DNA of 64,000 nt from Aurantiochytrium sp. KH105 (Eukaryota; Sar; Bigyra; Thraustochytrida; Thraustochytriidae): the NCBI GenBank assembly GCA_003116975.1, contig BGKB01000015.1, positions 434,001 to 498,000 on the forward strand. The letters run 5' to 3'. Each line of letters starts with the position of its first letter. Position 1 is the first letter of the stretch. Positions 8,411 to 57,078 of the stretch are shown piece by piece. Made by a program: the position numbers and the translations under genes. A model generated the notes under the pieces. That model saw only the letters and a program-made list of their open reading frames with translations, did not search any database and had not been told where the DNA came from.

Positions 8411-8990
8411 AAGCCGAATGCTTTCGTGCTTGATGCCAAAGCACGGTGAAGGTGCCGGAGGAAAGCGCGGTATAGCTACGTGCAACTGCGCTCAGCAGGA
8501 TTCGCGGAGCAGCCGGCAGGCTCCGCGAACATTTCGTTCTCGCTGAAGGCTCGGTCAGCGTCCAGCATGCAAGGAAGAGTAGTACAAGCTCAGGCTGGAG
8601 TCGGCAGGCGGCAGGCCGACTAGCCTTTTTTTTTTCCGTCGCTGGCGGGCTGGTCGCTCGCTATTTAGCTGAGGAAGCCAATCGAGCAAGCAAACAAGCA
8701 AGCAAACTTGTCTTCTTGTGACGCGTCGATACACTCAATGGCAGTGGCAGGAGCAGGAGCAGCAGGAGCTGGAGGCGCAGCAGGAGCTGGAGGCGCAGTG
8801 GAGGTGTTGGAGCAAGATGATGAAAAAAAAACAAAGAAACAACATACTGGGATCATCACTGCATTGCATTTTATAAACTGAAAAGGGAATGAGGGATGAG
8901 GGTTGTTGGTTGGTTGGTTGGTTTGGCGAGGTCTCGAGTCGATGCAGACAGATAAATAGGCGCCAGAGTCGGCCTTTGGCGACTGGCAAG

Positions 8991-10232
8991 CTATGGTGAG
9001 TGGCGATCCTCCTCGTCGTCGTCGACGCCGTCACCGTTGTCATGGATACGCTCAGGGCTGAGCTCTTCATCGAGTTCAAAAAGAGGTCGCGGCCTGGCGC
9101 TCATGCGTTTCCGCGAGACACGCTCATGAAGATCACGAATCTCGCTGCTCCGAAAGGGCGAGAGCTCGTGCAGCCAGCTTGTTCGCGTATGATCTACGCG
9201 GTCTGGCCTTCCGCGAGCGTCCACAGAGCGCGTGTAGAGTCGGCGGCGAGACTCCGTCAAGGACAGCGCCTGGTCCGTCGTCGACTCCGTCGAGGAGTCC
9301 TCCTCCTCACAGCTCGCCTGGCTACCCACGGCGTCTTCCGGCCTGCTCGGCCGCGCAACCCGCTGTGCGGTCCGCACAGAAGAGACCCCCTTGAGAGCAT
9401 CTGCGCCATGTTGGTGTTCAAAAGTGGCGGCATTAACAGTGGCTCGCCTTCGTGGGATTCCCTCCAAAAGAACTTGCTGCTGGCGACGCGAAATGGAAAC
9501 GCGCTGCGCCAATCCAGATGTGCCGGCATCGCCACCGCCGCGGCCTCCGCTTCGATCGTCATCGATGACGATTCGTCTATACATGGGGAAGAGCGCGTCC
9601 GCACGGGAAATAAGCATCTCGGTGACAAAGATGGCCACGTGGATCTTGGCTGTGGCCTCTTGCGCCGAGAAGTGAGGCAGGAAAAATACAGGCGCGAAAC
9701 AAATGGCGAGAGCGTGCACGGACATCTTGGTGTGGTCCTTGTCGGCGGCGACGGAGCGTAAGAAATTGAACACCTTGGCGAGCGTTGCAGCGCTTGTGCT
9801 CGAAAGCGTGCGCGTGAGCACGCGGAGGGACTTGTTGAACTTTGCCATGCGCCTTCGCTCCGTCTTGCTGGGCTCTGCAGGCTGCGTCATGTCCACCTTG
9901 GTCGCCGCGCGGACGAGCTGCTGCGCCTGGCTCTTGAGGAAGATGGGCGTGTTGGTCTCCATCAGGTACTTTTTAAAGAGGCTCGCGGCGTCGTTCGCCT
10001 CGACGCCCACAAAGGTCGTCAGCGCGCTCGGCTCCCCGAGCTCGTACCTGTCCACGAGCTCGTCCACGATCTCCTTCCTGCCGGGCACTCTAAAGACGAA
10101 CTCCGGAATGTCCGTCTTGAGGAAGTCCACGCAGTCCGTCACGACGCGCAGCAGCGGCGCGCGGAGCCTCCCGGTCACCAGCGTCGCGCGTTCGCCGGAC
10201 GCCCTCTTCCCGCTCGAGTACCTCTTCATCAT
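8991..10232 (-). CDS. RhoGAP-domain protein
   Basis: This encodes 413 residues from the first of two adjacent ATGs (10232, 10229). A RhoGAP domain fills about residues 18-215. It begins with a typical first helix, then EFVFRVPG with R48 at the position of the catalytic arginine finger, and later has a SVHALAICFAPVFF segment matching the conserved block that contacts the GTPase. The usual PxL/xxxG spacing is kept. The C-terminal 200 residues are Ser/Arg/Asp-rich and disordered. Such proteins accelerate GTP hydrolysis by Rho/Rac/Cdc42 GTPases and so control actin and polarity. The frame stays open about 165 codons upstream, but that part is Arg/Ala/Gly-rich, GC-driven sequence and is taken as promoter or 5' UTR. 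Confidence 0.75.
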   Translation of the reverse strand: MMKRYSSGKRASGERATLVTGRLRAPLLRVVTDCVDFLKTDIPEFVFRVPGRKEIVDELVDRYELGEPSALTTFVGVEANDAASLFKKYLMETNTPIFLKSQAQQLVRAATKVDMTQPAEPSKTERRRMAKFNKSLRVLTRTLSSTSAATLAKVFNFLRSVAADKDHTKMSVHALAICFAPVFFLPHFSAQEATAKIHVAIFVTEMLISRADALFPMYRRIVIDDDRSGGRGGGDAGTSGLAQRVSISRRQQQVLLEGIPRRRATVNAATFEHQHGADALKGVSSVRTAQRVARPSRPEDAVGSQASCEEEDSSTESTTDQALSLTESRRRLYTRSVDARGRPDRVDHTRTSWLHELSPFRSSEIRDLHERVSRKRMSARPRPLFELDEELSPERIHDNGDGVDDDEEDRHSP

Positions 10233-11231
10233 CCTCGCGCTCGCGTCGCGGCCTCGTGCCCGCGCGCCCGCGCGTCCCCGCGCGCCGCTCGCGGCTCGCG
10301 CACACCGGTCTGTCTGCCTCCCGCCCAATCCCAATTCTGCGGCTCGATCCCGCGCGATCCCGCCCGGCCGCGCCGGCCTCCGCCGCCTGCCTCGGGTCCC
10401 GCGCGTCCCGCGCGCCCGGAGCGCCCCGCGCCGCCGCTGCCGCCGCCCGGTGGCCGTCTGCGCGCCCGCCGCGGCGCCGCTCTCGGGTCTGCCTGCAGCG
10501 CCGTGCCGCTCGCGCCGTTCTGCTTCTTGCGGCGGCGAGCAGAACCCGGACGGCGCGGCCGAGCGGTAGAACCTGCGGGAGACGAGCAAGCCCGCCCCTC
10601 GCGCAGCGGGCGATGCGACGATGAGCCGCAAGAGCGCAGACGAGCAGGGAGAGCGACGAAGAGGGCGACGCGGAGCTGGGCCGTGAGACAGCCTCAGACT
10701 TCGAAGAGAACATTTTTGCACCGGCAAAGCTACTTAAGATAAGGAATGGCGGAAGGCGGTCATGTAGAGTTGATCGCGGAGGCAGACGATAGGTTTGGTG
10801 CCCTTGTCGAGCAGTATGGAGAGAGCATTTTCATGAAGGATGACCACCGGGCTTTTAGGAAAGCTTTCAAATCCAGTCGGTATGATTGATAGGGCTGTTC
10901 TGCACATTGGCCTGCTTGGTGGAAAAGTGCGGCGCGTGCATGCCCGGGTGCATGCGCGACAAAATGAGCATCAAAAAATACAGAAGCCTTGGCATTCTAA
11001 AATAAGGATCGTTGAGCGGTTAACTTCCTGGCAGATCGGAAACATTCCTTGGCTCGAAGGCGGCGAAGAAACCTGCGCGCTGTGCACATTTTGCGCTGTT
11101 GTGTAAAATCGCGCTGGTCATCTTCCTGGCGAGTTACCAGTGTTACGACGAAGAGGAGGCTTGAAAGGATAAAAAGCCCAACCTTTCTCTCGCGACTACA
11201 TCGACGAAACAAATAAAATGATTCTCGTAGA
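10233..11231. other. Intergenic region between RhoGAP 5' end and GmrSD-like 3' end
   Basis: The first 390 bases are extremely GC-rich (CGCG runs) and probably form the RhoGAP promoter and leader. The rest is normal in composition and contains one short, coding-looking open frame (10746-10889, listed separately). No other feature is supported. Confidence 0.4.
10746..10889 (+). CDS. Possible small ORF, 47 codons
   Basis: An ATG at 10746 opens a 47-codon frame ending in TGA at 10887-10889. Its composition looks protein-like (MAEGGHVELIAEADDRFG start, mixed helix-forming residues, no low complexity), unlike the surrounding promoter DNA. A GTATGA donor-like site overlaps its end, so it could be a first exon whose continuation I cannot find. 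It could also be chance. No homology is recognised. Confidence 0.25.
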   Translation: MAEGGHVELIAEADDRFGALVEQYGESIFMKDDHRAFRKAFKSSRYD

Positions 11232-14200
11232 CTAGTCCTTGACGCCAGGGAGATTAATGTCAGAGAGCCCAGAGCTGTCGGAGTCATCAGAGTTGGCAAC
11301 ATCGGGATCGTAATCTGCGTCACCATCATCTGACTTGTCTCCATCAGATGATGACTCGTCTGACTCATCTGCGCTGGAATCGTCGATGAGCTCGTACACG
11401 ACGGGCTTTTTGCTATCGGACTTCTTCTTCTTCTTCTTCTTTTTGTTCTTCTTCTTGTTGTTGTTGATCACTTTACCGCTCTGGCTACTGGAGCCGTTGC
11501 GGGAGGTGCTGTCTTGGCCAGTGGCGGTGGCAGAGGTAGCACTGACGCTGGCGCTGGTGCTGCTACTGCTACTTTTGTTGTGCTCGCGATTCTCAGCGAT
11601 TTCTTGAGGAGCTTGATTGACTGCAACAGCCGGATTTTGCGAAGGTAACCCGGGTGGGGTCCGCGATTGCATCAGCGCTTCCACAGCGTTGCGCTCAGCA
11701 GAATCATCACCCGAATCGTCAGGAGCAGCCTTCGAGGAAGTCCCTTGAGTTGGTCTCTTGGGACTGGTATCGGTCCCTACAGGCGTCGGTGCATGCGAAT
11801 CCGGGGCCCGCGACGAGTGACTCGAAGCCAGGCCTACAGCATCTTCAACTTCTTTGGGAGTGACGTCCCATGACTTCATGACCACATCCAAGATATCATT
11901 GAGTCGGAATCGTTGCGGGGCACCCTTTTTCTGACCAGGAAGCTCGGCGATGCCGAGCGCTTTGGTGGCGACAGCCTCAAAGAGGCCCGTGAGTGTCGCC
12001 TTCTCCTCCACGTTGCTGGGAGAGTCCCTATCCCAAAGTTTGTAGGAAATACGGTCGTTCTCATAGCTGAAAAGACCACTCAGAATGACCTGAGAACGTT
12101 TGGGTGCTGGGGAGTACGAGTCCGGCAAGGCGTATGTGTACTCGAACTGAAAACCATCAGGAAACACATACCAGCTCCCGCGAGGCGCCCGAATCGCGCA
12201 TACGCCCTTGGAGGTTTCGCCCCAGCTCGTGATTTTGAGTGGACTGCGCTTCGTCCTTCTCCACGGAAGCTTCGGCGGGTCAGCGCAGCCGTTACCTACA
12301 CGAGCTGTGACATAATCACCTCTGTAGTTCGCTGGTGTGATGCTCGCCGATGTGGCACTCGTTGCTATGGCACTCGTTGCTATGGCACTCGCTGAGCTGC
12401 CGATTCGCGTCCCGCCAGACGTCCCTCCCTGCACCTTACTCGCTGATATGGCACTCGCTGAGCTGCCGATTCGCGTCACGCCAGACGTCCCTCCCTGCGC
12501 CTTACTCGCTGATGTGGCACTCGCTGAGCTGCCGATTCGAGTCATGCCAGACGTCCCTCCCTGCATCTCACTCGATTCATCCCTGGAAGCGTTGGCTCGA
12601 GCATTTTTTTGCAAGCGACGACGCTTGAAAGCTACCTTCTCATCATACGACGGTACATCGATATCGCCCAGAGGATCAGAGTTCGCAAAGTCGGCGGATT
12701 GGGCGCGAGAACGCTTGCCCAATTCGCCGGAAGCCCTTCCCGCTGATAATGTAGGTGTAATACAGCGCGAGTTCGATCCAGGGCTCGCATGCCGTTTGGA
12801 CACTGATGCGGTAGGAGCATTTGATGAAGAGGACGCCCGGTGCGCCGATGCCGATTTACGGATCACTGGCTGGACGTCGTTGCCAGGGAACTCCTTTTTC
12901 TGCACCATAGGCTCCATTTCTTCATCTGATTCGCTTGACAACGATTCTTTCGCAGCCTTTCTGAACGCGTCTTGGACCTCTTTGCGCCCGAACACAAGGA
13001 CGTGGTGGATTGGGATGGAGTTTCTCAGATGCAGTGTGTGAGTCAGTAAAAGGTCCATTTCGACATCGGATGTATTTCGTCCCACATCTTCGAGCTTTTT
13101 TTGCGCCGAGTCAGGAAGCGAGAATGAACCTAGGTCTCGTGCCTTGCGTCCATCTCGATTCAATTGCCAAAGCTGGATATAAAAGTTGCCTTGAAGCGGA
13201 AGGATCTTCACCATGAACTGGAGTCCAAAGAGCATAAACTCTGCCTTGAAATTCGGCGTCAACTGAATCCCAGCGTCCTTTTCCGATATTTTGGCCACGT
13301 CGCCGAGGCTTATCACCTTCCACGGGCCAATCCTGTCGTCACGGCCCGAGGGCAACTGATGTTGGGCCCGAACCTTTGCCGAGAACTGCGTCCTCAAGAA
13401 AGAGAGGAAAGTCCGCGCAGCATCCGCATCACCGCATTGCGCTCGGCCGAGATATTCCCGCGCAAGCATTTTTATAGACATTGGACTGCGCGACGACTTT
13501 TTCCCTCGAGTCTTTTTGAGCAAGGGATCCAAGGCGTCCGCCAAAAGTCCCACACATTCAACATTTGTCAGCGAGGCCAACGAGTGCAGCGCCTGGAGTT
13601 TGTCAACAATGTCAAAGTGCTGTGTTGGCTTCCACGGCAACCACGAAGAGGGTCGTTTCGCTAAAGATGCGGGCGTTTGAGGAAGACCTTCGCGAGCAAT
13701 CTTGATGACCTGGTCAAGTGACGCTCGCGCTGCGTCCGGATCGTTGACGAGACTCCCCGCAGAAAACAAGGATGTCACAAGGCCTCTGCTCATCTGCTTG
13801 GGTGGGCCGCCAACATCTTTGAGCATGCGGTCGTCAAATACGTTCATCTCGAAGTTGGAACACGTAAAAATCCGAAGAGCCTCGCAAATAGAATAAAGGT
13901 TTTGCGTGAAGAGGTCTTTGGCGTGATTGCTTCCCCAAGCTGGGAAGATCTGGCCGCTATTTTGGGCCACAACGTGCTTGGCCAGCCATGAAGCCCCGGG
14001 CAAGGGGCCTCGGATCAGATTCTTTGCCTTCCCGGCATTCGGATCGAAAAAGCTAACCTTTTCCTGATACGAGGTGTTGTGAAGGCTCACGTTCGCATCT
14101 TCACGTATCACACAGAGGTTTCCAAGACCATGGAACCAGAGTGCGCCAGACACACCTTTATTGTCGACGTGCTCCAGAGAAAAGTCACACATCGTGTAAG

Positions 14201-15944
14201 CGCGAGTCTGCACCTTGGTCGGTGTGACAAGTTCGGCGTCAGCCAAAAGAAGAGCAAAGATAAGGGCCTGCTTCTGGCCCGGCCTTTCGCAGACATCCAC
14301 ATAAAGTGTTGGGCTGGAAAGGTACTTGAGGAATTCTGCACGCATGTCCGTACTGATGCCAAAATGTTTGCACGTGAAATGCAGCAATCCAGCGAGACGA
14401 GCAAAGCCCTCTTTGTCGCCAAGTGCAAAGCGCACACCGCGCAAAAAATGCCGCGCGGCGAAAATAAAGTGGAATTCAGTCCACGGCTCAGGTCGCAAAA
14501 CTTGCAAAAGACAAAATCGCGCGACCACGGAAACGAAACGGAGCTGGGCGAGACCGGCCTCATCAGCGCCAAGGCACACCTTCACCTCTTTGAGCCCAAA
14601 GGCAAGCACTCCGTCAAGATGTTGGAAGTACTTGCGCAATGTTGTCATGATCAACAAAAGCTGCGCAAGTTTCCTCTGGTGTGTGGCATTCTCGCTGCGC
14701 AAGTTCGGGGGAGGAATCGACCCCCGTTCCGGAAAGCGCACCTCAACCATTGATTTCGTCACAGCACGCAGCTCCTCGAGCAGCTGCAGATTCCTGTACA
14801 TTCCGCTTGAATCCCTTGTGAGCTCCAGAAACAATCGACTTGGGGACACAGTACCACCTTGCGCAATTTCTTCAGCCTCCGACATGGATTCATTGATAGC
14901 GGATAAGGCCGCATTGAGCAACCCTGAACGAATTTCGCGAGAAAAGGGTTCGAGCAAGATGCCCAGTTTCGACAATTGAGAGTGCGCCGATGGCACGCCA
15001 GACGTTGAGCCTATGTTACGCGTGCTATACTGGAAGGCCATCCGCAAGTGATCCTCTGGCGCGAGAGACAGACCTTGAAGCGTGTTCGCTTGCCGGCAGA
15101 AATCAGCGGCCATGCCAGCATCGTCCACAACGGCCAAGTTGATCATTACACGCGTCTTTACCCAAAACGCAAAGTCTTGAAGTGCCTTGGTCGCGCCGCG
15201 CATGCACATACGATGAAGTTCGGCCACGAGGCTCATAAGGTTCACGATAATGTTTTTGCTGCTTTCGTTGATGTCAATTTTTGATCCCAGCAGGTCCATC
15301 ACGAGAGCGAGGTGCTTTGCGGGGGATTGTAGGGCGTTCTGTAGCACCCACGCGCCCGTGAGCTTGTTGGCAGGAGAAGTCTTTTCAGAAAGCGCGCCAC
15401 TTGATGATATGCCAAGTGAGGCATGACAAAGCGCTTGAAAAAGATCCCGCAAAAACTGGTTTTCCGACGACTGCCATAAAAAGCGAGGCAACTGTCTTCT
15501 GTCGTTGGCTGAAACTCTCACAAGTAGAATGTCTGCGAGAATCTTGCGCATTTGCTCCGCGTTCCTCGCAACCTCATCGCCGGAGGCTTGAATGCAAAGA
15601 GCGTAAGTAATAAGGAAGACAGTCGTCAGGCGATGCTGACCATCCAAGACGTCGAGACAAGACACGTCTGATGATTGCTTTGAAGTTCGAAAACATGTCA
15701 CGGTCCCCAGATGATAATATGAGACTTTGGGAGATAATGGTTTTTCGTCCTTGATATTCGAGGATTCAAGGCGCTCTTTCCGAAATTCTTGCAAGAATGC
15801 ATGGAGCATCGCCATCGCTCGCTCCGACCGCCATCCGTACGCAATTTGGTCGCCGTTCACGGCGACCTGTAAGTCTTCGCCTCTCGCAGACAGATCCGTC
15901 AAGGATTTGAAACTTGAAGTCGGCAGCGCAGGGGGGGCCTCCAT
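11232..15944 (-). CDS. GmrSD-like protein: DUF262 (ParB-fold) plus DUF1524 (HNH) with long disordered tail
   Basis: This encodes 1570 residues from the ATG at 15944; the frame is open 50 codons further but Arg-rich. Residues about 25-310 match DUF262. There is a DQIAYGW segment in place of the usual QR.Y.W, then LGTV, then the signature DGQHRLTT at 101-108, and NTLQGLSLAPEDHLRM near 288-302, equivalent to the N.rG..L...D element. Residues about 540-640 match DUF1524: helical ALIFALLLADAEL, then SLEH (H592), GLGNL (606-610), N618, N623 and K629, the HNH-type order. In bacteria these two domains form GmrSD, an NTP-dependent nuclease cutting modified phage DNA. The rest (about 660-1570) has an FKRRRLQK-type nuclear signal, a 22-residue tandem repeat, Ser-rich linkers, a Lys tract and an acidic end. 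DNA cleavage and nuclear location are inferred. Confidence 0.7.
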   Translation of the reverse strand: MEAPPALPTSSFKSLTDLSARGEDLQVAVNGDQIAYGWRSERAMAMLHAFLQEFRKERLESSNIKDEKPLSPKVSYYHLGTVTCFRTSKQSSDVSCLDVLDGQHRLTTVFLITYALCIQASGDEVARNAEQMRKILADILLVRVSANDRRQLPRFLWQSSENQFLRDLFQALCHASLGISSSGALSEKTSPANKLTGAWVLQNALQSPAKHLALVMDLLGSKIDINESSKNIIVNLMSLVAELHRMCMRGATKALQDFAFWVKTRVMINLAVVDDAGMAADFCRQANTLQGLSLAPEDHLRMAFQYSTRNIGSTSGVPSAHSQLSKLGILLEPFSREIRSGLLNAALSAINESMSEAEEIAQGGTVSPSRLFLELTRDSSGMYRNLQLLEELRAVTKSMVEVRFPERGSIPPPNLRSENATHQRKLAQLLLIMTTLRKYFQHLDGVLAFGLKEVKVCLGADEAGLAQLRFVSVVARFCLLQVLRPEPWTEFHFIFAARHFLRGVRFALGDKEGFARLAGLLHFTCKHFGISTDMRAEFLKYLSSPTLYVDVCERPGQKQALIFALLLADAELVTPTKVQTRAYTMCDFSLEHVDNKGVSGALWFHGLGNLCVIREDANVSLHNTSYQEKVSFFDPNAGKAKNLIRGPLPGASWLAKHVVAQNSGQIFPAWGSNHAKDLFTQNLYSICEALRIFTCSNFEMNVFDDRMLKDVGGPPKQMSRGLVTSLFSAGSLVNDPDAARASLDQVIKIAREGLPQTPASLAKRPSSWLPWKPTQHFDIVDKLQALHSLASLTNVECVGLLADALDPLLKKTRGKKSSRSPMSIKMLAREYLGRAQCGDADAARTFLSFLRTQFSAKVRAQHQLPSGRDDRIGPWKVISLGDVAKISEKDAGIQLTPNFKAEFMLFGLQFMVKILPLQGNFYIQLWQLNRDGRKARDLGSFSLPDSAQKKLEDVGRNTSDVEMDLLLTHTLHLRNSIPIHHVLVFGRKEVQDAFRKAAKESLSSESDEEMEPMVQKKEFPGNDVQPVIRKSASAHRASSSSNAPTASVSKRHASPGSNSRCITPTLSAGRASGELGKRSRAQSADFANSDPLGDIDVPSYDEKVAFKRRRLQKNARANASRDESSEMQGGTSGMTRIGSSASATSASKAQGGTSGVTRIGSSASAISASKVQGGTSGGTRIGSSASAIATSAIATSATSASITPANYRGDYVTARVGNGCADPPKLPWRRTKRSPLKITSWGETSKGVCAIRAPRGSWYVFPDGFQFEYTYALPDSYSPAPKRSQVILSGLFSYENDRISYKLWDRDSPSNVEEKATLTGLFEAVATKALGIAELPGQKKGAPQRFRLNDILDVVMKSWDVTPKEVEDAVGLASSHSSRAPDSHAPTPVGTDTSPKRPTQGTSSKAAPDDSGDDSAERNAVEALMQSRTPPGLPSQNPAVAVNQAPQEIAENREHNKSSSSSTSASVSATSATATGQDSTSRNGSSSQSGKVINNNKKKNKKKKKKKKSDSKKPVVYELIDDSSADESDESSSDGDKSDDGDADYDPDVANSDDSDSSGLSDINLPGVKD
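12391..12573. repeat. 66-bp coding tandem repeat, three copies
   Basis: Units start at 12391, 12457 and 12523, exactly 66 bases apart, so each adds 22 residues in frame to the GmrSD-like protein (a GGTSG.TRIGSSASA core). Copies differ at only a few bases, indicating recent expansion. Shorter 15-base subrepeats (ctcgttgctatggca type) flank the left side near 12346-12385. Confidence 0.9.
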
Positions 15945-16349
15945 CGCAACGCCCGCGCAGACGCGACCAGTGAGCCGGTGCGCCCCGAGACCGCCTCGGG
16001 GCGCGAGCCTTTGCCGGCACGCCTGCTTCTCTCGCTCCCCAGCGCGCGGCGAGACCTCCTCGCCTCCCGTCCTCTCCACTCGAATATGCTCCACCTATGC
16101 GCGCCGCCGCAGGAGACATACAACACACACTACGCTGTCAGCCTACTCCCTCTCTCTCCCTTGCGGAACAGCGTGAATAGAGAGACCGGCCGGCCGATAA
16201 ACTTTAAGCTACACGACACGGCGAGGCCTGTGTCGGCTGCACGCGGAACTCGGAGAGTGTCTCGGAGGCGGAGAGAGAGTCCACTCCGCGCTGCGGCAGC
16301 GGCTGCTCGGTCGCTGGCTGCAAATGGAGTCTGTCTGCGCGAGCGCGCG

Positions 16350-16438
16350 GAGACTGACAGTCAGGCAGACAGTCAGACTGACGGAGACATACCGATAGTC
16401 AGACAGACAGAGAGACAGACTGCGCGACAGAGACAGAG
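16350..16438. repeat. GACA/CAGA microsatellite
   Basis: Degenerate tandem GACAGTCAGGCAGACA-type units cover about 90 bases in the divergent promoter region. Confidence 0.8.
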
Positions 16439-18004
16439 GGGAGGCAGACGCGGACGGCCATATAATCAACTTGGGCTGCGGGAGCCGCCAAAGGCACATC
16501 ACTCTATGGCCGCAACGCGCACTCTCGCTCGCTGCGGAGAGACCACAGCGTCGAGAAATGAACCCGCAGCGGCGGAGGAAGGGGGGGCCTCGCAGGACAT
16601 TCTGATGGGCAAGACTCGGAAATGACGTGTCTGTCCTGTTCACGGGAATGGGGGTATGGAAATGGATGCGCGCGGGAAAGTCGCGCGGGATGAGATTGAA
16701 AGGGGAGCGGGAGATCGATCTGGTTGAGATAGCACAGTGAAAAGGGGATTGAAGTCAAATTTCGAACGACTTCCTTTGCAATGAAGGGGGGGGTTCCGAC
16801 TTTTGCGTCCGGGACACGTGGTGACCATCTTCGGCTTCACAGTCAGCCATCCTGGCTAACAACAAGGCAACCTTTCACGCATATATACCGGGTTGAAAAC
16901 TCCTATATTACCCCTTTGGCCTTCCCCACACATAGGTGGCTGTGGGTAGCCTAGGAGGGAAGGGAAAAAAATGAGTGTGGCAATGTAGTTTGCGCACGTA
17001 GTTTTCATGAGATTCTTTTGAGATTCTCCTGCAACTGGCGTCTGATTGGAGACTTGCTTTTCCGACACACTTGATGGCCATGGCTGGCGGCAGCAGCCAG
17101 GCTGAAAACAACGAGGGCGCTTTTCAAGAGCGATACTCCGACCTCTGTGATTGAGGTGGCGACGCGGAAAAAATCAGAAACAAGACAGCAATTTCTAGCT
17201 TTCTATATACGTAGGCCTATACATGCAGTGATCGGTTGCTTGCAGAAAATCTCTTGCTCATTTGTTTACAAAAGAAGAAAAGCACGTTGCGCTCTCAACC
17301 TTTCGAAGTTTGTAGGCCTGACTGTGAATTACGAGAATATGATTGGTCGGCGCGACGACACGCTCACATCAAGAAGAAGAAGAAGCCATTCTACCTTCAC
17401 TTCCCTACCGCTTCAGTTCGTTTTCTCCGTCGTCATTCAGCTATTTTCTGCCTCCTTTGTCCAGACCCCCTTTCCGACGCAAGCGCCTAATAAAAGTAAG
17501 ACCAGCTCCGTCTCCTCGCCCTGCCCGGAATTCCGCGCCACTTCCCGTACTTCCGGGGGGGGAGGTTTTCTAGAAAAGACAATGTCTACAAGTGTTGTCA
17601 TTGTGTGGTCGCTGCGGCGTCTCGGGGCGAGAGACAGACAGGCAGCTATAGCTCTCAACTTGCCTTTTCACTTTCACTTTCACAGTATACAACACAGGGG
17701 CAGAGCCGTATAGGTCCATAGCCCGCGGACTGTTTGTCCATTGCGCACCAACAGGGGAAAGGCGCGAGAAAAGGGTGGATCTCGCGGTCCGCGCCACTGC
17801 CGAAGCCAATCCAGAAACGTAGGTTGCCGACCCCGCGCGCGCCGGCCGCTGTCTCCGCGAAGAGCATGCAAAGAGGCCGAGCGAGCGAGCGAGAGAGAGA
17901 GAGACCGACTGACTAACAGACTGCGCGCGCCCGAACGAACGCCCGTCCGTGCACGTCGCTTTGCATCGCACCGCGCAGAAGCGTACGCAGCCAGCCAGCC
18001 AAGT

Positions 18005-18035
<31 letters not shown>

Positions 18036-18036
18036 C
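18005..18036 (+). repeat. CAG trinucleotide tract in CPN10 leader
   Basis: About ten CAG/AGC triplets end 12 bases before the CPN10 start codon. A similar CAG-type tract (on the minus strand) lies upstream of the myosin start. Confidence 0.9.
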
Positions 18037-18048
18037 AGCAGAAGCAAG

Positions 18049-18348
18049 ATGTCCGGCCTCCGCAAGCTCATCCCGCTCGCTGACCGCGTGCTCGTGAAGC
18101 GCGCCGTCCCGGTGACCCAGACCGCCGGCGGCGTCTTCCTGCCGGAGTCCTCCACCAAGAAGGAGCCCGAGGCCGAGGTTGTGGCCGTCGGACCCGGCCG
18201 CCGGGACCAGAACGGCAACATTGTGCCCATGACCGTCGAGGTCGGTGACAAGGTCCTTCTCCCGGAGTACGGCGGCCAGGCCGTGCAGTTCGGCGACGAG
18301 GAGTTCCAGCTCTTCCGCAACGACGATATTCTCGGCAAGTACCAGTGA
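18049..18348 (+). CDS. cpn10: Mitochondrial chaperonin 10 (GroES/HSPE1 family)
   Basis: This encodes 99 residues, the usual length of the family. The start MSGLRKLIPLADRVLVKR matches the conserved PL.DRVLVKR strand. A mobile-loop region (VTQTAGGVFLPES) is followed by EAEVVAVGPG, VGDKVLLPEYGG and a C-terminal ILGKYQ. The product is the heptameric lid that caps chaperonin 60 and releases folded protein. No cleavable presequence is visible, as in other mitochondrial cpn10 proteins that import with an uncleaved N terminus. The gene is intronless, with strong GC-ending codon bias that suggests high expression. The leader carries the CAG tract. Confidence 0.95.
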   Translation: MSGLRKLIPLADRVLVKRAVPVTQTAGGVFLPESSTKKEPEAEVVAVGPGRRDQNGNIVPMTVEVGDKVLLPEYGGQAVQFGDEEFQLFRNDDILGKYQ

Positions 18349-19382
18349 GCCAAATCCATCTGCATCTTTTTATGTTCTTTACACACCAAGTTCCCTCCCT
18401 CTTTCCTCCTTGTCACGTGCGTGAGTTTGGATGGAGCTACTCCTGGCAGACAAACAAACAAACGAACAAACAAACACCCCAATACGCTTGATTGGCCGTT
18501 CACTCGCCTCCTCGTAAGCAACAACTCGTCTGCAGTGCAGCGATCTCCATTCGCGAACAGACCGATTTACATTCGCGATAAAAACCTCTTGTCTCCGTGA
18601 ACCTTCGTTTGCTGCTGCCCTCGTCGATCGAGCAATAGGATAATTAGAAGCTTGCCTCGTTCGCGATGACCCTTGCGCGCGCGCTGGTCAAAAGGAAGAA
18701 CGTTCGCCAGGAGATTGTCTTGCCGCGCCACAAAAGTCGCCTCACTTGATAGCACGTTTAACGTTTGAGTGGCTGCTCCTCTTGCTGCTGTAATTCTGAT
18801 AAGTTTGCTCCTTTTCGGAACAACAGCCCAAAGTTTATACCTTTGTGCAAGCTCGGCCTTTCAGCTTGGCGAGCGAGCATGGCCGAACAAAGGACTCGTG
18901 TCCTTGGAAACATGGGTGATCGACGACACTTTTCTCTCTCGTGCAAAGAGACAAACTTTTGCGAGAATGCTATTCTGTGAATTGTCCTTTCCTCTTGTAC
19001 TGCGGCAAAACAAAAAAAAATCGTCCGTCAGACGCAACCGCGGGACGCTCTACTGCAGGCACTTCAAATGCGACATATGTGTGAGAGCAACATTCATTCT
19101 CGCTGTTTCGTTTCCATCTTTTTTTGCAGTCCGAAATGCGCAGGTCGACGTCGCAGTTCTCCTCGTACCGCCACCACCCGCATGAGTCAAGCCAAGCACA
19201 TCTTTCGCGTGGGTGGTGTTGTCGCCTGATGCATTTCGTCGCCGGCCAGCCTACTACACAAAACCAAAAAGCAACCAACAAAAGAAAAGAACACACAATC
19301 AATCAATCAATGACATCTGCCGCCGCGAGCAAAAAAGAGAACAGCAGACTTGGAAAGCAGCTTGGGAGAGAAGCACGCGACG
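18349..19382. other. Intergenic region, CPN10 to kinase
   Basis: A CAAA repeat lies near 18453-18476 and an AATC repeat near 19296-19310. Longest frames lack an ATG start or any domain. It probably contains the CPN10 terminator and the kinase promoter. No other feature is seen. Confidence 0.5.
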
Positions 19383-20696
19383 ATGGCCGAGGGCGGGGAC
19401 GCAAGCGCTGAGGCAGACGCGACGTTGCAGACCGAAACGCACCAAGGCGCGAGCTCCTCGGACGAAGAAGAGTTTGGCGAGATCGTGGAACAGGACCTAA
19501 ACAACGTCGAGGTCGTTGATCTCGACGCTCGCGGCGAAGTCTCCAACAGCGACGAGGAGGACAAGGAAGACGAAGGAACAGATCATCATGACTTGCAAGC
19601 CGAGTTCCTGCAAGAAGTTGTTGTCCAGAGACTCGAAGACGGTAGCAAATTGGTAAACGAGTTCAAAAAATTGAGCAAACTGGCCAGTGGCACGCTATGC
19701 TCCGTCAAACTATACGAGAACACGCGGTCACGAAGACGCGTTGCCATCAAAAGTTTCCACAAAGCGCGATTACAGAGAATGAAAACATATTATACCGGCC
19801 CTGATGGGAGAATGGCCGTGCGCACAGCTGTGGACGATCTTCAACGCGAAGTTGACCTGTTGGCAGCCATGCCACCGCACGACAGTCTGTGCCGGCTGCT
19901 TCAAGTTTTGGACGATGAAGAGCATCACAAGACCTATCTCGTTTTCCCTTACTATGGCGGCGGCTGTCTCATGCACTTTGACAGCGCCAATTTCACATTT
20001 TGGCACGCTGCCCCCCAAGGTGCGCGTGGCGTAGACCCAGACTGCCCGAGCATGTTGCTGCTTCCAGACGCGCTCTCATACTGCGCGGACATAGCTCGCG
20101 CCCTCGCTCATTTGCACGCGCAAAAGGTGGTCCACCGCGACGTGAAACCTGCCAACGTGTTACTTTCCACCTCTCGTCAGCGCGCAATTCTCTGCGATCT
20201 TGGATCGGGCAAGCAACTCAGCGATGGAGACGCAACCGGAGCTTCTTCCAGCAATAATGACGATACCAAATTAAAGGACACCGAAGGGACTTACCCCTTC
20301 TTTTCTCCAGAAATGTGCCGCGGAGAGGCCTACGACGCGTTTGCTGCAGATGTCTGGTCACTCGGCGTTTCTGTTTACGTTACAGTCTATTCTGTCCTTC
20401 CATATTTCTCGATCAGCCCCAAAGAGCTATTCGACCTCATCGGAGCTGCCTCGCCGAGCCAGGTTCCCATGCCAGACTTGGAAAATGCCGCGGGAAATCC
20501 GCGTCTTGCGCCACACGTCGAAATCATTAATTCGCGTTGTGAGAACGGTGTTGTGCAAAATCTCTTGCGCGCCCTTTTGCACCCAGATCCCAGCAAACGT
20601 CCAACCGCCGAGGCTGCAGCCGACATGCTTTCGGTAGGTGCTAGTGAAGTCGCCGTCGCGACGCAAGACTCCGGTGCCGCGCAGGATGCCAGCTGA
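19383..20696 (+). CDS. Ser/Thr protein kinase, CaMKK/LKB1-activating-kinase-like
   Basis: This encodes 437 residues from the ATG at 19383. Residues 1-75 are acidic and disordered. The kinase domain spans about 95-425: VAIK with K123, glutamate E156 in the C helix, catalytic loop HRDVKPANVLL (251-261), DLG at 272-274 in place of DFG, GTYPFFSPE (302-310) and DVWSLGV (323-329). The REVDLLAAM...LLQVLDDEE pattern and the YPFFSPE activation segment are closest to CaMKK/Elm1-type kinases that activate AMPK-family enzymes. An insertion of about 20 residues follows the beta5 strand (198-224). No calmodulin-binding tail is obvious. Catalytic residues are present, so it should be active. The exact subfamily is inferred. 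Confidence 0.8.
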   Translation: MAEGGDASAEADATLQTETHQGASSSDEEEFGEIVEQDLNNVEVVDLDARGEVSNSDEEDKEDEGTDHHDLQAEFLQEVVVQRLEDGSKLVNEFKKLSKLASGTLCSVKLYENTRSRRRVAIKSFHKARLQRMKTYYTGPDGRMAVRTAVDDLQREVDLLAAMPPHDSLCRLLQVLDDEEHHKTYLVFPYYGGGCLMHFDSANFTFWHAAPQGARGVDPDCPSMLLLPDALSYCADIARALAHLHAQKVVHRDVKPANVLLSTSRQRAILCDLGSGKQLSDGDATGASSSNNDDTKLKDTEGTYPFFSPEMCRGEAYDAFAADVWSLGVSVYVTVYSVLPYFSISPKELFDLIGAASPSQVPMPDLENAAGNPRLAPHVEIINSRCENGVVQNLLRALLHPDPSKRPTAEAAADMLSVGASEVAVATQDSGAAQDAS

Positions 20697-21245
20697 GCGG
20701 AAAGGTGGTAGTCTAAAATCGAGCTGAGATGATATTTGCAAATTTGCATACGTGCATCGACTCAAGCTCGTCTGCATGTTTGCCATTCGTAGTGTCTATA
20801 TTTGATCAAGGCTTCGCGTTATGATACATACCTTGGCAGCAGGATCTCCTCGGCCACGGGAGCTCCATCGGAAAGTGCAATTCGCGGACCAGGGAGGGAA
20901 GGACCCGAGGCCAGCCATAATAGATAAATCATGTTCCTGAATGGCAGCGACTGACTCGTCGACCATTTGACTGACCGTGAGTGAGTGACAGACTGCCTGC
21001 CTACTCGTCTGCCTGTCTGCCTGCCTGCCTGCCTGCCTGCCAGTGATGCGTGCATCGATTTTCTGGTCATTGTCACGCACCGTTGACATGAACTTGCGGA
21101 GTATTGCGTCCCGGCCCAAACACCTTCGCCAAGCTGAGCGTGAGAGAGCAAAGCAGTGCAATCTCACAATCGGAGCAATTCGCCGAGGGCAGGCAGCACC
21201 AGAGCAAGGCAGCGCCCGCGCGACGCTGACGGGAGCGCCGCAGCC
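20697..21245. other. Intergenic region with CCTG repeat
   Basis: This is the 3' flank of the kinase and 5' flank of the small membrane protein. Apart from the CCTG array (20994-21042) and a GAGT/CTGA-rich stretch before it, nothing is recognised. Confidence 0.5.
20994..21042. repeat. CCTG tetranucleotide microsatellite
   Basis: About ten CCTG units with two early interruptions (CTACTCGT, CTGT) lie 200 bases upstream of the next gene. Confidence 0.9.
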
Positions 21246-21614
21246 ATGGCCTCGCGGCGGAATCTGGCGACGGCGGCAGGCCTCGTGGGCTTCATCGGGC
21301 TGTGCGCGTCCGTGCCCATGTGGTACAGCAACAAGCTCAAGCAGGCGCAGGTGAACCTGCAGCAGCAGGAGAACGCGCTCACGGGCAACCAGGTGATCCG
21401 CGGCGCGTACCTGAACACCGGCTCCCGCGACGCAGGCGTGGACCCCGACTGGGACTTCGAGCGCCGCGTCTGGCGCGGCAGGCGCGCGCAGCACCCGCCC
21501 AAGCCCGAGGATTTCCCCTTCCTCGCCTCCTCCTCCTCCTCCGCGCCAGCCGCGCCAGCCGCGCCCGCGCCCGCGCCCGCGGGCCCCGGCGACGCCGCCG
21601 CGCCGCCCGCGTAG
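21246..21614 (+). CDS. Small single-pass membrane protein, probably mitochondrial
   Basis: This encodes 122 residues from the ATG at 21246. A short basic N terminus (MASRRNLA) precedes one hydrophobic helix (about 8-25), then a KQAQ...QQQENALTG helix and the segment IRGAYLNTGSRDAGVDPDWD. The C terminus is Ser/Pro/Ala-rich low complexity. Basic N terminus plus single helix resembles inner-membrane assembly-factor-type proteins. The RGAYLNTGSRD...DPDWD block looks conserved and may help identify the family, but I cannot name it. The upstream frame extends to another ATG at 21156, which I consider leader sequence. Confidence 0.55.
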   Translation: MASRRNLATAAGLVGFIGLCASVPMWYSNKLKQAQVNLQQQENALTGNQVIRGAYLNTGSRDAGVDPDWDFERRVWRGRRAQHPPKPEDFPFLASSSSSAPAAPAAPAPAPAGPGDAAAPPA

Positions 21615-21876
21615 CCGCCGCCGCGCCGCCGCGCCCTCCCTCGCGCACGCCGCTCGCGCACGCCGCGGCCGCGCCTCCCGCTCGTGCACGCCGCGGCCGC
21701 GCGCTCCTCTTCCTCGCGCCCATCGCAGCCATCTCCTCGCAGCCATCTCATCTCATCTCAACTCATCTCAGCCGTCTCATCTCAGCCCGGCCATCTCGCC
21801 GTCGCGGCGCAGACCCCGAACGCGGCGAGGCGGGCGAGGCGGGCGAGGCGGCGAGCAGCGCGGCGGCGACGCGAGC

Positions 21877-23052
21877 ATGGCGCAGGCGGAGGCGGGCGCG
21901 CGCGACCTGGCCGGGCGCGGCGCGGCGGCGGCCGGCGGGGATGGCGCTGGCGCTGCGCAGGGCGGCGAGCGCGCGCGCGAGGCGGGCGCGGGCGCGGGCG
22001 CGGGCGGCGGGCGCGAGGGGGGCGAAGATGATGATAGAGTAGGCCTAGGAGAAGAAGTTGATGATGATGAGAGAGTTCAAGGTGGTGGTGTGCTTGGAGA
22101 CCCCGCGCGGAACCTCGAAGTGGTGGACGCTTTCGTGGACGCGTCGGCCGTCCAGCGGACGGGCCTGCTTGCAGGAGCGCGAAAAGAGGACCACGAAAAG
22201 GAAAAGGAAGTCGAGGGAGACGCCGAGGAGGAGGAGGAGGAGGAGGAGGAGGAGGACGATGAAGTCTTCTTTGAACCGTCCTTGTTCCTGCCGCGCGCAG
22301 ACGATGCCGAGCTCATCTCATTCCAGTTCGGCTCGGACGTCTGCGTCGAGCTCTTCGCGCACAGTGCAAAGGCGACCGCCTACGACATGACGGGCACCAT
22401 TGTCTGGCCGGTCTCGCAGCTTCTCACATGGTACATCGTGGGTGCAGCCGAACTTCTTCGCGGTAAGCACGTGGTGGAAATTGGCGCCGGATGCGGGCTC
22501 GTCGGCTTTGCGGCCGCCCAACTCGGCCCCAAGAGCGTATGCATTGCAGATGGCGAAGATATCGTCTGCGAGATGCTTCAACGCACGGCAACGCACGCGC
22601 GCGAAACGGGTGCTGCCTCAGCGAGTATTTCTGTGCAAAAAATTCTCTGGGGCGATCACGGCGCATCGCTCAACATGCTCTCCTCAGCAGAGGTTGAGGG
22701 ACCCGTGCGGGTTGTCCTCGGCACGGACGTTTTCCATCCGTCGTTTGGCGAGCCTTCCGAGGTGTTTGAGCTTGTTGAAGCGCTGGCAGCACGAGATCCC
22801 GATGATGCCGACGTCGACGGCGGGAAGGAGGACCCCTCCGAGGTTCTCTTTATTTGTGGATTTGTTGACCGCTGCAATCAGAGCGACGTTCTAGCCGCCG
22901 CTGAGGCCAACGGGTTCGCCATGACGTCCGTGCCGACCTCTTCATTTCTCCCCTCGACGCTCTCGGTGTCTGACTTGAGCCAGCGTGTCCTGCAGCTGCT
23001 CCGTTTCACCAAGCCTATGAGCAAGATAAAAGTTCATGTGAACAACGCATAG
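21877..23052 (+). CDS. Family-16 (METTL21/FAM86-type) methyltransferase
   Basis: This encodes 391 residues. The first 135 are low complexity: Ala/Gly-rich, then acidic, with a run of more than ten glutamates near 117-126. The catalytic domain starts near 140. It has the family-specific TGTIVWPVSQLLTWYI block (172-187), SAM-binding motif I VVEIGAGCGLVG (199-210), an acidic residue after the next strand (ADGED, 224-228) and VLGTDVFHPS in place of the usual D.hY. Enzymes of this class methylate lysines of chaperones, elongation factors or other proteins. The acidic tail could be a substrate-targeting extension. No better ATG exists downstream, so the long N terminus seems real unless a first exon is hidden. 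Confidence 0.75.
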   Translation: MAQAEAGARDLAGRGAAAAGGDGAGAAQGGERAREAGAGAGAGGGREGGEDDDRVGLGEEVDDDERVQGGGVLGDPARNLEVVDAFVDASAVQRTGLLAGARKEDHEKEKEVEGDAEEEEEEEEEEDDEVFFEPSLFLPRADDAELISFQFGSDVCVELFAHSAKATAYDMTGTIVWPVSQLLTWYIVGAAELLRGKHVVEIGAGCGLVGFAAAQLGPKSVCIADGEDIVCEMLQRTATHARETGAASASISVQKILWGDHGASLNMLSSAEVEGPVRVVLGTDVFHPSFGEPSEVFELVEALAARDPDDADVDGGKEDPSEVLFICGFVDRCNQSDVLAAAEANGFAMTSVPTSSFLPSTLSVSDLSQRVLQLLRFTKPMSKIKVHVNNA

Positions 23053-23924
23053 CGCGTGTGTAGTGGAACTATTCTTTGACAGATCGTGATTGGCTAGGGC
23101 CGCGAAAGTGGCTCCTGTCTTTAATAATTCTAAATTCTATATTTCCATGACGCAACGCTTTCTTCTTTTCTTTCTGTGCTCTCCGAACACTTTTCAAAGC
23201 AGGATTGGATTCATATGCATTCTGCAAAACGTGAGCAGGAATTGCCAGAAATTGGCATTTATGCAAATCTGCATCTGTAGATAGAACACGAGCGCGATCC
23301 ACAAAACTGAACTTGTCCTCTCGTTTAGGACCGAGAGATGAGGTGATGTCGATTCGATTGTGCTTGCAACCGCAAGCAGATCCATCTGCGAAAGAACGAA
23401 CCATGTTCCTCGAAGGATCTCTTTGCTTTGAGGGGAGCTGGCTCGAGATCGCGTCTGAGTTTCTGCGTAGACATCTTTCCTCTCCAAAACGTGAGCGCGA
23501 CTTTCGACTTGTACATTGCTCAACTGCACAGCACGGCTGAAGTTCTTTTCCTTTCTCATTGGTTAGCCTAGGCCCGACGACGAAGCGGTTGTCGTTGTTT
23601 CTTCGGCCAACTAATATACCAGTTGTAGTAGGCTATACAACATGTCGATCGACATAAGAACAACTCCAGATCAAAAGAACCGAAAAGAACAAAAACAAAC
23701 GTTGAATTTGTTTTTGCCAGTGAACTCGCAGAAGCGCTTCGTTCGGCCCGGTCGCGGCGCGGTCGCGGCGCAGTGACGCAGCGGGAAAGACACGTCTGCA
23801 TCGAGGCGGGCAGGGGCTGGGCCACGCGCTCGAGCAAGATCGACCTCGCGCGCACTTGGGTTTTCTGCGCGCGATCCATTTCACTTTTTCCTCCTTCTCT
23901 CCCGACCTGACGGTAAGCGAAACC
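23053..23924. other. Intergenic region, methyltransferase to elongin C
   Basis: Mostly AT-richer DNA of normal complexity. A GGTCGCGGCGC motif is duplicated near 23751-23771, about 160 bases before the elongin C ATG. No gene or RNA is recognised. Confidence 0.45.
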
Positions 23925-24284
23925 ATGAGCTCGTCGTCGTCTTCGTCTGCGGCCGGCTCGGCGGCGCAGAGCAGCAGCGCAGGAGGCGCTGGCGCCAAGC
24001 GCACCTATGTAAAGCTCATCAGCGCGGAGGGTCATGAATTTTTTCTGGATAAGGAGGTGGCGATGATCGCAACAACCATTTCGGCCATGCTCACGGGTAA
24101 CTTTTCAGAGAGCAAGGGCGAGATTCGTTTTCCCGAGATCTCCACAAAGGTCCTCGAAAAGGTCGTGCAGTACCTTCACTACAAACAAAAGTACACCAAC
24201 TCGTCGCAACCTATTCCGGAGTTTGACATTGACCCCGAAATGGTCGCAGATCTGCTTATGGCCGCCAACTTTCTCAATTGCTAG
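23925..24284 (+). CDS. ELOC: Elongin C
   Basis: This encodes 119 residues from the ATG at 23925; an upstream in-frame ATG at 23856 would add 23 residues unlike the family. After a Ser/Ala/Gly N terminus the BTB/POZ-type Skp1 fold is nearly complete: YVKLISAEGHEFFLDKEVA, TISAMLTG, EIRFPEIS, VVQYLHYKQKYTNSS, IPEFDIDPE and the C-terminal LLMAANFLNC. Human elongin C ends LLMAANFLDC. The protein bridges elongin B/A in transcription elongation, and BC-box receptors with cullin 2/5 in ubiquitin ligases. Intronless. It is convergent with the myosin gene. Confidence 0.95.
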   Translation: MSSSSSSSAAGSAAQSSSAGGAGAKRTYVKLISAEGHEFFLDKEVAMIATTISAMLTGNFSESKGEIRFPEISTKVLEKVVQYLHYKQKYTNSSQPIPEFDIDPEMVADLLMAANFLNC

Positions 24285-25075
24285 CTCTTATACTCCTCAC
24301 GCAAGGGTGTCTCTCATCTGCGAGGCGAGCCTTGCAAGTTGCTCAAGTCGCCTTTTGCTCACCTGCTTTGCTCTTATTGTCGCTCTCGCTCGGCATGCCA
24401 TGTCGTCTCAGACCAATGCGGATCACGTATTCGCTTCTTGAATACCTCGTCTGCGCTCGCCTTCTTCATTGTATGCAGCTACGCTCTGCAGAAAAGGCAG
24501 ACTGTCTTCACTTGGACGATCGGGTTCTTTAGTATAAAGACCGAGTACATGCGCGAAGCATGGGTGCCATAAATCCATCTCTCTGTTTGACGTTTTGGAT
24601 CCAACCAGCGTGACTGGTCAGCCCGAAATCTATCTACCTGCCACCACACGCAACATTAAAGAATCATCGAAGTATGTTGGAGCAGCGTTTGATTTTCCCT
24701 TTTGATTCTGTTTTTCGAATCTCGCGTCTGTGGAACTTTCGTCTGTTTGTTCATTGTGGCAGTGAGCTAGCTTTGGTCACAGCAGCCAATTGCCAGCAGC
24801 TTTCGCACGCTATCAATCCGATGTGCAGAAAACCTATTGAGGCAAGGGTAATAAATGTATATACCCCTTATCTGCTTTGTTGGAGAGTCCAACAATGGAA
24901 CCCAACCTCCTCAGACTTTCCGTCTTCAAACTTGTTCACAAATTTTGCAATGATTTATTTATTTATCCTTTTGATGGTTGTAAAAGAAAAAGAAAAAGTA
25001 GTAGTAGAGTCGCCTCGCACAAACGCACATTTGGTATAATCAGAAGCTTGGCGCGGACACAGAGTGCGACGGTGT
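24285..25075. other. Convergent intergenic region, elongin C / myosin
   Basis: It contains the 3' ends of both genes. The DNA is AT-rich near 24940-25010 (GAAAAAGAAAAAG and TTATTTATTTAT strings), which may serve as polyadenylation context for either strand. I see no gene. Confidence 0.45.
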
Positions 25076-30556: not shown

Positions 30557-30690
30557 CTTCTTGTCTTGGGGAGGCCGCTTCGCGTGCACACGAGCAGTCG
30601 CTCCTCTACTTCACGTGCCGCGTGTGCGTGCCACGTGTGCTTTTCGCGAGATGAGCGACTTTTTGCTTTGACGCAGCGCGCCGAGCGTAC

Positions 30691-30736
30691 GCTGCTGCTG
30701 CGGCTGTGCTGCTACTGCTGCTGCTGCTGCCGCCGC
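30691..30736. repeat. CTG/CAG tract upstream of myosin
   Basis: Interrupted CTG triplets on the plus strand read as CAG on the myosin sense strand, about 135-180 bases before the start codon. It is comparable to the CAG tract in the CPN10 leader. Confidence 0.85.
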
Positions 30737-55784: not shown

Positions 55785-57078
55785 GGCGGCAATGGCGGCG
55801 AGGGGAGCGAGGGCGGGCGGGCAAGAGACGCGAAGAGGCGCCGCGAGCGAGCAGGTGCGGCGGAGAGGGGGCGCGAAAGCAGAAAGAGAGGCGGAGGGGA
55901 AGGGCGCGAGGGGAGAGCCTGGCTGGGCTGGCTGCTGATGCGATGATGCGGACTTGGCGCGTTCTCTGCGGAGGCGCGCGCAGACGGAGCGTGTCGCGAC
56001 GGCGCCCGCGCGGAGGGGGGAAAGGGGGGGGGGGAGGGAGGGGGTTGCTGGCTTGCGCCTTGCGCGCCTGCCTGCCTACCACGCGGTCGTGCGCGCGCGA
56101 GGGCGAGAGCGAAAGGTGTTTGTGCAAAAAAGAAATATATGCCAGCGCGTGCCGTGTACACGGCTGCACACCCGGCTTTCCTTTCCTTTTCCGTGCACGA
56201 TATCAAACAGCTCGTGAGCAGAGTGAGCAAGCCTCGGAAAGCTGCGCAGAGCGAAGGGAGGGGGGGCGTAGTATACTATAATCTTATTGTGGGATGAGGC
56301 GAATGGCGAGAGCGCGGAACACAACCTCATCTCTCAAGGTGCCTCCATTCATTAAAATTTATCTGGTTTGTACTCACAAGAAGCGCGCCTTTTTCTATAA
56401 AATGACAGATAATTGGACCACGCAGGGAAAGAGAAGAAGGACGAGCAGGTTTACCACAAATTCTTCTTTGCTGAAAGATTCTGCCACTTCACGACATGGA
56501 CGTTGCACAAATGGTTGCAGTAGTGCTAAGAGTCTGCTGACTCAAAGACGGCTGCATCTTGGTCACTCGATCAGATCGTCAACCTTGTGTGTTCGGTAGA
56601 CTCAAGCGGCGACGTCGATGTCATGCCATCATCACACAAAATTTCAAGCGTCTCGACATTGGGCAACATCACAAACGGCGATGCGCACCAATCTTGACCG
56701 AGGAGCGAAAAAAATGAAAGCAGCCCAAGGCCAAGCAATAAAATTAAAGGCAGGCTCAAAACCTAAAGCTTCCATTACTTTTTGCCTCAACTTTCACAAT
56801 TTACCGCGTTGCGTTTCCTCGCCGCCGCCGCCAACCTGATCCTCGCCTGCCTGCTTGCTTGCCTGCCTGTCAAGTGTTGGCTCTCACAATCTCGTCCCAC
56901 TGGTTCCCACTAGTTCCCCATCCGTTCCCTCTTGGTTCCCTACCAATTCCTCGGCGGTTCCGCCCTCCCTCGCCGCCGCCGCCGCCGCCGCGCGCCGGAC
57001 CCCCGCGTACCCTAACCCTCCCCTCTTCTCCCCCGGAGGCGGCGCAAGGCGCGGCTTTCGCCGAGGGCCCGGGGCGCG

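Follow-up and report, generated by a model that had tools for sequence, protein, structure and literature searches.

A diverged GmrSD-type gene with a long C-terminal tail, a candidate domesticated nuclease, and its canonical paralogue in the genome of Aurantiochytrium sp. KH105

The stretch of DNA analyzed here (64,000 nucleotides of contig BGKB01000015.1 of the thraustochytrid Aurantiochytrium sp. KH105, positions 434,001 to 498,000; hereafter, the window) carries on its reverse strand an intronless gene (11232-15944) that runs as a single open frame of 1,570 amino acids from an ATG at 15944 to a TAG, without any internal stop. A preliminary description, made from the sequence, had proposed such a gene and had assigned to its product both halves of the bacterial GmrSD-type restriction enzymes, i.e., a DUF262 half and a DUF1524 (HNH) half, followed by a tail of about 900 residues. 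The motifs on which that assignment was based are located where it had placed them (Table 1), and the homology to both halves is borne out by a GmrSD_N match, by PADLOC models, by a profile alignment (hhalign) with a second locus of the same genome, and by the count of family-conserved columns.

In the Pfam scans, the first ~310 residues of the window protein match PF03235 (GmrSD_N) with E=9.3e-6, below the curated cut-off of the family, and no match to PF07510 (GmrSD_C/DUF1524) was found on this protein; the profile check therefore supports, with that reserve, the first of the two predicted domains and not the second. The PADLOC models Orf5 (1.7e-7), HEC-06 (2e-6), and SspE (2.1e-5) also match the protein, and a second SspE model (7.2e-5) has its best stretch at residues 604-634, in the C-terminal half. 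Since Pfam gives no GmrSD_C match, the HNH half is supported instead by the SspE model, the alignment with the second locus, and the predicted fold. As to the DGQHR domain PF14072, a Pfam scan at E<=10 listed only GmrSD_N, although the HMMER filters drop weak matches.

When the genome assembly (76 Mb, 367 contigs) was searched with PF03235, four places were found, two over the cut-off (C58 and C17) and two below it (C6 and C15, the latter being the window). PF07510 was found in two places, C58 and C17, both over the cut-off. The C58 copy reaches 54.5 bits for PF03235 and 38.1 bits for PF07510, and contains DGQQR and the E-H-N-K residues; the whole-protein Pfam scan gave both domains for this copy and only GmrSD_N for the C17 copy. 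These two homeologous copies (locus A) encode, from the first plausible ATG, proteins of 1,106 and 1,159 amino acids with the motifs VPDYQRGYVWE, SDGQQRL, FEHIHPQ, HSLGNIVLV, N, and YSEK. Locus A is also in a eukaryotic setting, since the adjacent frame encodes a sulphate permease and the next one a SET-domain protein. It resembles the window gene in having the same extension to about residue 850, and differs from it in that YQRGYVW, DGQQR, and EHIHPQ are intact and in that its tail is an acidic stretch. In this stretch (L007 1274-1556), a 24-bp tandem repeat encodes a DDEAEEEN-type run whose length differs between the homeologs, which have 53 gap codons across the whole gene.

A genome search with the window protein returned only these four loci, five further matches having E values of at least 0.09. 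In an hhalign comparison, 633 columns of the window type, i.e., the window and C6 copies (locus B), align with locus A (E=2.2e-12); identity over the core is 25%. Against a profile of 28 database homologues, locus A aligns over 511 columns (E=7e-26) and the window type over only 79 N-terminal columns (E=7e-12). In a tree of 49 rows, comprising the four copies of this genome and 45 of the 120 database proteins listed, the four copies form one clade with a support of 100/100, although their branches are long and the program gave a warning about the meeting of long branches. The ~200 residues past the HNH part that align between both loci (WG..xAKDLF.. and GR.CG..AAR..L.FL) provide a support independent of the tree. 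This extension was found in none of 231 prokaryotic or viral open reading frames tested, there being no match above 5 bits past profile position 720 and a best E of 0.22 for the extension alone. Since the two loci align, form one clade, and share the extension, the simplest account of both is likely a single acquisition, followed by the extension and then by a duplication.

The state of the motifs distinguishes the two loci. Of the 20 columns in which at least 90% of 27 database rows show conservation, 16 are kept by the window copy, against a background of 17% (binomial p=1e-9), and 18 by locus A. In the window copy, Ile34 replaces the Arg of QR, His104 the second Gln of DGQQR (a Gln present in 27/27 database rows), Cys283 the Phe of FxxxN, and Leu347 a Trp; in locus A, Ala264 stands in place of a Gly and Phe301 in place of that same Trp. 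In addition, the Tyr before QR (Tyr30 of SspE) aligns with Tyr30 in locus A and with Asp32 in the window protein. The changes in the QR.Y.W and DGQQR motifs, whose degenerate state had been pointed out previously, are common to the window copy and its C6 homeolog. On the HNH side, E591, H592, G608, N609, N618, and K629 are all kept, and each of the four copies in the genome has the HNH residues, so the comparison with homologues does not show a loss of every catalytic residue. In SspE, the Tyr of YQR is needed for phosphorothioate sensing, the Arg of DGQQR for guanosine triphosphate hydrolysis, and Asn676/724 for nicking, and N618 of the window protein aligns with the catalytic N676 of StSspE (PMC13251355). 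In BrxU, Q101A and R102A abolish hydrolysis and restriction, and D474A and H475A abolish only cleavage (PMC8565348).

Judged by this alignment, residues equivalent to the cutting ones and to the gate Arg are present in the window protein, and those equivalent to the sensor Tyr and to one gate Gln have been lost. Because it retains the HNH residues and the gate Arg while YQR is without its Tyr and Arg and DGQQR without one Gln, the protein is likely a domesticated cutter with a rewired sensing half. The interpretation we prefer, with about even confidence, is thus that of a domesticated GmrSD-type HNH nuclease with a rewired sensing and nucleoside triphosphate (NTP) gate, whose cleavage, NTP use, location, and target are predicted. 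The preliminary description had also seen in it a possible domesticated nuclease of uncertain activity, and the homology of both halves, together with the eukaryotic neighbors, keeps this as the best reading.

Table 1. Parts of the window gene and one neighboring frame. The ratio of nonsynonymous to synonymous substitution (dN/dS) is that between the window and C6 homeologs, with the bootstrap confidence interval (CI) in brackets.
Feature	Position in the window	Strand	Basis	dN/dS (CI)
Whole gene, intronless, 1,570 aa: diverged DUF262, helical linker, HNH (DUF1524-like), long tail	11232..15944	-		0.43 (0.33-0.58)
ParB/Srx-like DUF262 half, residues 10-310	15015..15917	-	GmrSD_N match; model blocks mostly pLDDT 60-92	0.24 (0.13-0.46), residues 1-310
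DQIAYGW, degenerate YQRxYxW, residues 32-38; Tyr to Asp32, Arg to Ile34; Gln, second Tyr, and Trp kept	15831..15851	-	alignment	
DGQHR, NTP-gate motif, residues 101-105; second Gln of DGQQR to His; Arg105 kept	15630..15644	-	alignment	
Third DUF262 motif, residues 287-298 (N287, E297-D298); N287 and G291 kept; upstream Phe to Cys283	15051..15086	-	conserved-column count	
Linker, residues 311-540, mostly helical, low model confidence	14325..15014	-	predicted structure	0.42 (0.21-0.87)
HNH (DUF1524-like) half, residues 541-650; strands 588-592 and 610-614, helix 615-621	13995..14324	-	SspE model, hhalign, fold	0.42 (0.13-1.64; p=0.13, not significantly <1)
E591-H592, catalytic Glu-His of the HNH motif	14169..14174	-	alignment; equivalents reported essential in BrxU (PMC8565348)	
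Remaining HNH motif, residues 606-629: GLGNL (606-610), N618, N623, K629	14058..14129	-	alignment	
Extension common to the second locus, residues 651-860; none in the 231 prokaryotic/viral frames tested	13365..13994	-		0.61 (not significant)
Window-type-specific constrained segment, residues 880-1040, no Pfam match	12825..13307	-		0.34 (0.14-0.79)
Ser/Thr-rich (30%) stretch, residues 1041-1204; 66-bp repeat x3 at 12372-12574	12333..12824	-		0.81
Most constrained tail segment, residues 1205-1360, no Pfam match	11865..12332	-		0.14 (0-0.48)
Poly-Lys run (putative nuclear-type signal) and acidic end, residues 1361-1570	11235..11864	-	sequence	0.79
RhoGAP neighbor frame, also adjoining the homeologous C6 copy; eukaryotic, syntenic context	8994..10733	-		

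The window and C6 regions agree at ~92.5% nucleotide identity across genes and flanks (window 8456-24308 versus L010 and L015 on contig C6), and thus the assembly carries two versions of the region, which look like two haplotypes or a hybrid. The window protein is under purifying selection: between the homeologs of its gene dS is 0.092 and dN is 0.040 (Fisher p=1e-9), both frames are open, and there are 15 gap codons. Locus A gives an overall dN/dS of 0.49 (CI 0.37-0.64, p=2e-6), and its DUF262 half one of 0.82 (CI 0.45-1.61, not significant), a value compatible with either weak constraint or rapid evolution of the recognition half. A protein of 1,054 amino acids from the thraustochytrid Hondaea fermentalgiana was the only protein found in one of the protein searches; it is 97.2% identical to the C6 copy (1,025/1,054) and 92.4% to the window copy (967/1,047). 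The public Hondaea model (P0002) starts at residue 216 of the window protein, and therefore shows no DUF262 half, and is without about 961-1266; these gaps (1-215 and about 961-1266) are probably due to a mis-predicted start and intron.

The neighbors of the gene in the window encode a RhoGAP, a protein kinase, a lysine methyltransferase, a glutamate dehydrogenase, U5-116K/EFTUD2, a WD40-Roc-COR-TIR protein, and an EF-hand protein, all eukaryotic. These frames and the syntenic homeologs are in agreement with the earlier view that the gene lies among ordinary eukaryotic genes and is not bacterial contamination. The family is prokaryotic and several motif residues are lost, as would be expected for contamination or for a recent transfer in decay, but the eukaryotic neighbors, the homeologs with their similar flanks, the purifying selection on two open frames, the nearly identical Hondaea protein, and the lack of any close prokaryotic relative in our searches make this origin extremely improbable, and recent contamination was rejected on these grounds. 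Elsewhere in the window, the frame 52461-56075 (-) encodes WD40, Roc, COR-A, and C-terminal TIR domains, the last three over the Pfam cut-offs, and is a ROCO-type protein with TIR, a mix of the kind found in innate-immune sensors. Two open frames of 1,936 and 1,844 amino acids overlap on opposite strands at 25040-30850 (+) and 25076-30610 (-); the former has no Pfam match, and the region has only short tandem repeats.

The predicted structure of the window protein matches the fold of SspE, DndI, and BrxU, in accordance with the structural comparison that the preliminary description had suggested. Among viral predicted structures, its best Foldseek matches are giant-virus DUF262 proteins (E=5e-13 to 2e-4). 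These proteins, from Harvfovirus, Yasminevirus, Hyperionvirus, and ChoanoV1, are only 10-11% identical to the window protein, the likeness being one of predicted fold.

Several observations weigh against a functional domesticated nuclease. GmrSD_N scores 26.3 bits against a curated cut-off of 33.2, i.e., homologous but sub-threshold, and there is no match to GmrSD_C. The structural model has a mean predicted local distance difference test (pLDDT) score of 61.6 and a predicted template modeling score of 0.52; its root mean square deviation from SspE is large (18.4), its fold match is partly imposed, because the alignment behind the model included 40 database relatives, and a model of the tail (mean pLDDT 37.9) is too poor for a structure search. 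The EHVDN sequence is without the PQ that usually follows EHI, the dN/dS of the HNH half is not significantly below 1, and no partner gene is present in the genomic context. Moreover, the BrxU Q101A mutant, altered at the equivalent of His104, loses hydrolysis, cleavage, and restriction (PMC8565348), and therefore the NTP gate of the window protein may be dead.

The next most likely explanation, clearly less probable than the one we prefer, is that the protein no longer cuts and instead binds NTP, DNA, or the locus-A enzyme as a regulatory or inhibitory partner. The lost Tyr and Arg of YQR, the lost Gln, and the dead BrxU mutant point in this direction, as does the constraint, which is strongest in the DUF262 half and in a tail segment and not demonstrably in the HNH half; relatives of the protein are, in addition, reported to be dimers or tetramers. 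Nevertheless, all six HNH residues mentioned above are kept, which a dead nuclease need not do. As for the gate, DGQHR is the signature of DndB-type domains (PMC4619093), so that the change from DGQQR need not be inactivating.

The natural occurrence of DGQHR also speaks for a third explanation, a working restriction enzyme that still senses and cuts modified foreign DNA as in bacteria. The bacterial arrangement of the two halves and the preservation of the HNH residues and gate Arg would suit this role, and thraustochytrids have large DNA viruses, the mirusviruses (PMC12911909). We consider it rather unlikely, since the phosphorothioate sensor of SspE is replaced by Asp32 and the Arg of QR by Ile34, and no modification-making or defence neighbors were found within the window. 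In the genome, PF00145 (DNA methylase) matched three frames (C10, C149, and C72; L019-L021) with DNMT2-like CFT motifs, and hence this search gave no clear sign of a canonical DNA cytosine methyltransferase in the host. A Tet_JBP search of the genome had no match, but its control matched nowhere either, so it shows nothing.

The tail had been described as repetitive and acidic. This holds for parts of it only: residues 1041-1204 contain the 66-bp repeat and residues 1361-1570 have the acidic end, but residues 651-860 are the extension shared with locus A and residues 880-1040 and 1205-1360 are constrained. The strong constraint on residues 1205-1360, together with the poly-Lys run and acidic end, could indicate a non-nuclease housekeeping role, i.e., a chromatin or RNA factor built on the inherited scaffold with its function in the tail. 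Such a role seems to us improbable, as the DUF262 half is also constrained, the HNH residues are kept, and Pfam detected no chromatin domain in the tail. An FYR-domain reading of residues 1205-1360 was tried and failed (hhalign probability of 0.2%). In Smith-Waterman comparisons with the FYRN/FYRC proteins of the genome, one homeolog pair gave z values of 3.8 and 3.6 (2.6-2.8 with a variant sequence) and the other pair values of ~0 or below, and 1/275 unrelated segments reached an equal or higher score; the locus was not among the matches of the Pfam FYRN and FYRC genome searches, and Pfam found nothing on these residues. An internal repeat between residues 880-1040 and 1205-1360 was rejected (z 0.4).

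No close prokaryotic relative or donor was found in protein, plasmid, phage, viral-contig, or genome-contig searches. In the protein searches, scoring was confined to the ~8,000 candidates with the most words in common, so that relatives, including any Hondaea copy of locus A, may have been missed; one search gave the single eukaryotic protein mentioned above, another none, and a third 184 distantly related ones (E<=10, best E 7e-7), 120 of which were listed. The locus-A core gave 1,012 plasmid and 188 phage records by tblastn at E<=1, all below 60% identity and none covering 80%, and the window protein had no match in phages. Scans of viral contigs yielded 3 loci, none, and 95 confirmed ones (80 kept in the last case), and that of genome contigs 15, all 25-39% identical and mostly over the first ~100-150 residues. 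Among the relatives, a Spirochaetales frame of 1,384 amino acids (L032 1427-5578) has two DUF262-like matches, and neighboring flavobacterial genes (L031; L033 3956-7374) each match the family, one with the HNH part. Giant-virus DUF262/GmrSD proteins might possibly have been the vehicle into eukaryotes, judging by the similarity of the predicted folds.

Compared with SspE (PDB 6jiv, 7drs, 7drr), a phosphorothioate-sensing NTPase-HNH effector, the window protein has Asp32 in place of the sensing Tyr30, DGQHR in place of DGQQR, and a 900-residue eukaryotic tail; the SspE partners sspBCD did not turn up in the window, no specific genome search for them having been made. With DndI (PDB 9jfl), the DUF262 protein of DndBCDE-DndI, it shares 12% identity and differs by the motif losses and the tail. 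From the type IV enzymes GmrSD, Eco94GmrSD, and BrxU it differs in the weak GmrSD_N and absent GmrSD_C matches and in having His104 where BrxU has Q101, needed for hydrolysis. Eukaryotic GmrSD homologues are already known: they were reported in 2015 in Bacillariophyta, Chlorophyta, and Heterolobosea, with Thalassiosira oceanica and Coccomyxa named in a figure legend (PMC4619093), which lowers the novelty of our finding. The diatoms are stramenopiles like the organism studied here; thraustochytrids, a duplication, and a tail fusion do not appear in the available part of that account, and this description sets those homologues apart. A literature search for GmrSD and thraustochytrids returned no report, and no description of a canonical and rewired GmrSD pair was recognized in titles and abstracts. 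Thus, as far as this search goes, what is new is that one lineage combines a canonical copy with a rewired paralogue that bears a tail.

The sequence of events behind our preferred reading would be as follows. A single GmrSD-type gene of prokaryotic or viral origin would have entered an ancestor of the lineage, gained the C-terminal extension of ~200 residues, and then been duplicated. Locus A (C58/C17) would have kept the design of an NTP-gated, modification-sensing nuclease, and locus B (window, C6) would have lost the residue equivalent to the SspE modification sensor, changed its gate from DGQQR to DGQHR, and gained the long tail, which would direct the protein to a new target. The ParB/Srx-like half is predicted to bind NTP and DNA and the HNH half to nick or cut, and the target would be chosen by the tail or through association with locus A, not through the protein itself reading a modified base. 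The protein may be nuclear and might act on modified DNA, viruses, or mobile elements, as was first suggested. A more speculative extension, which we regard as doubtful, is a two-gene nuclear restriction system that tells host DNA from that of large DNA viruses, with locus A as the canonical sensor nuclease and the window gene encoding a partner that its tail anchors to the host chromatin and whose sensor was removed by selection, the ancestor having arrived via a giant virus.

The gene may have gone unnoticed because the public Hondaea model omits the DUF262 half. Bacteria use GmrSD/SspE-type enzymes against viruses whose DNA is modified, and the coexistence of locus A with a constrained, rewired paralogue that has a long tail offers a way to test how a restriction enzyme is tamed, given the danger it poses to a genome that is itself methylated or modified. 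Thraustochytrids are cultured and genetically tractable and, because they also host DNA viruses, could reveal whether restriction-type nucleases serve in the defence of a eukaryote.
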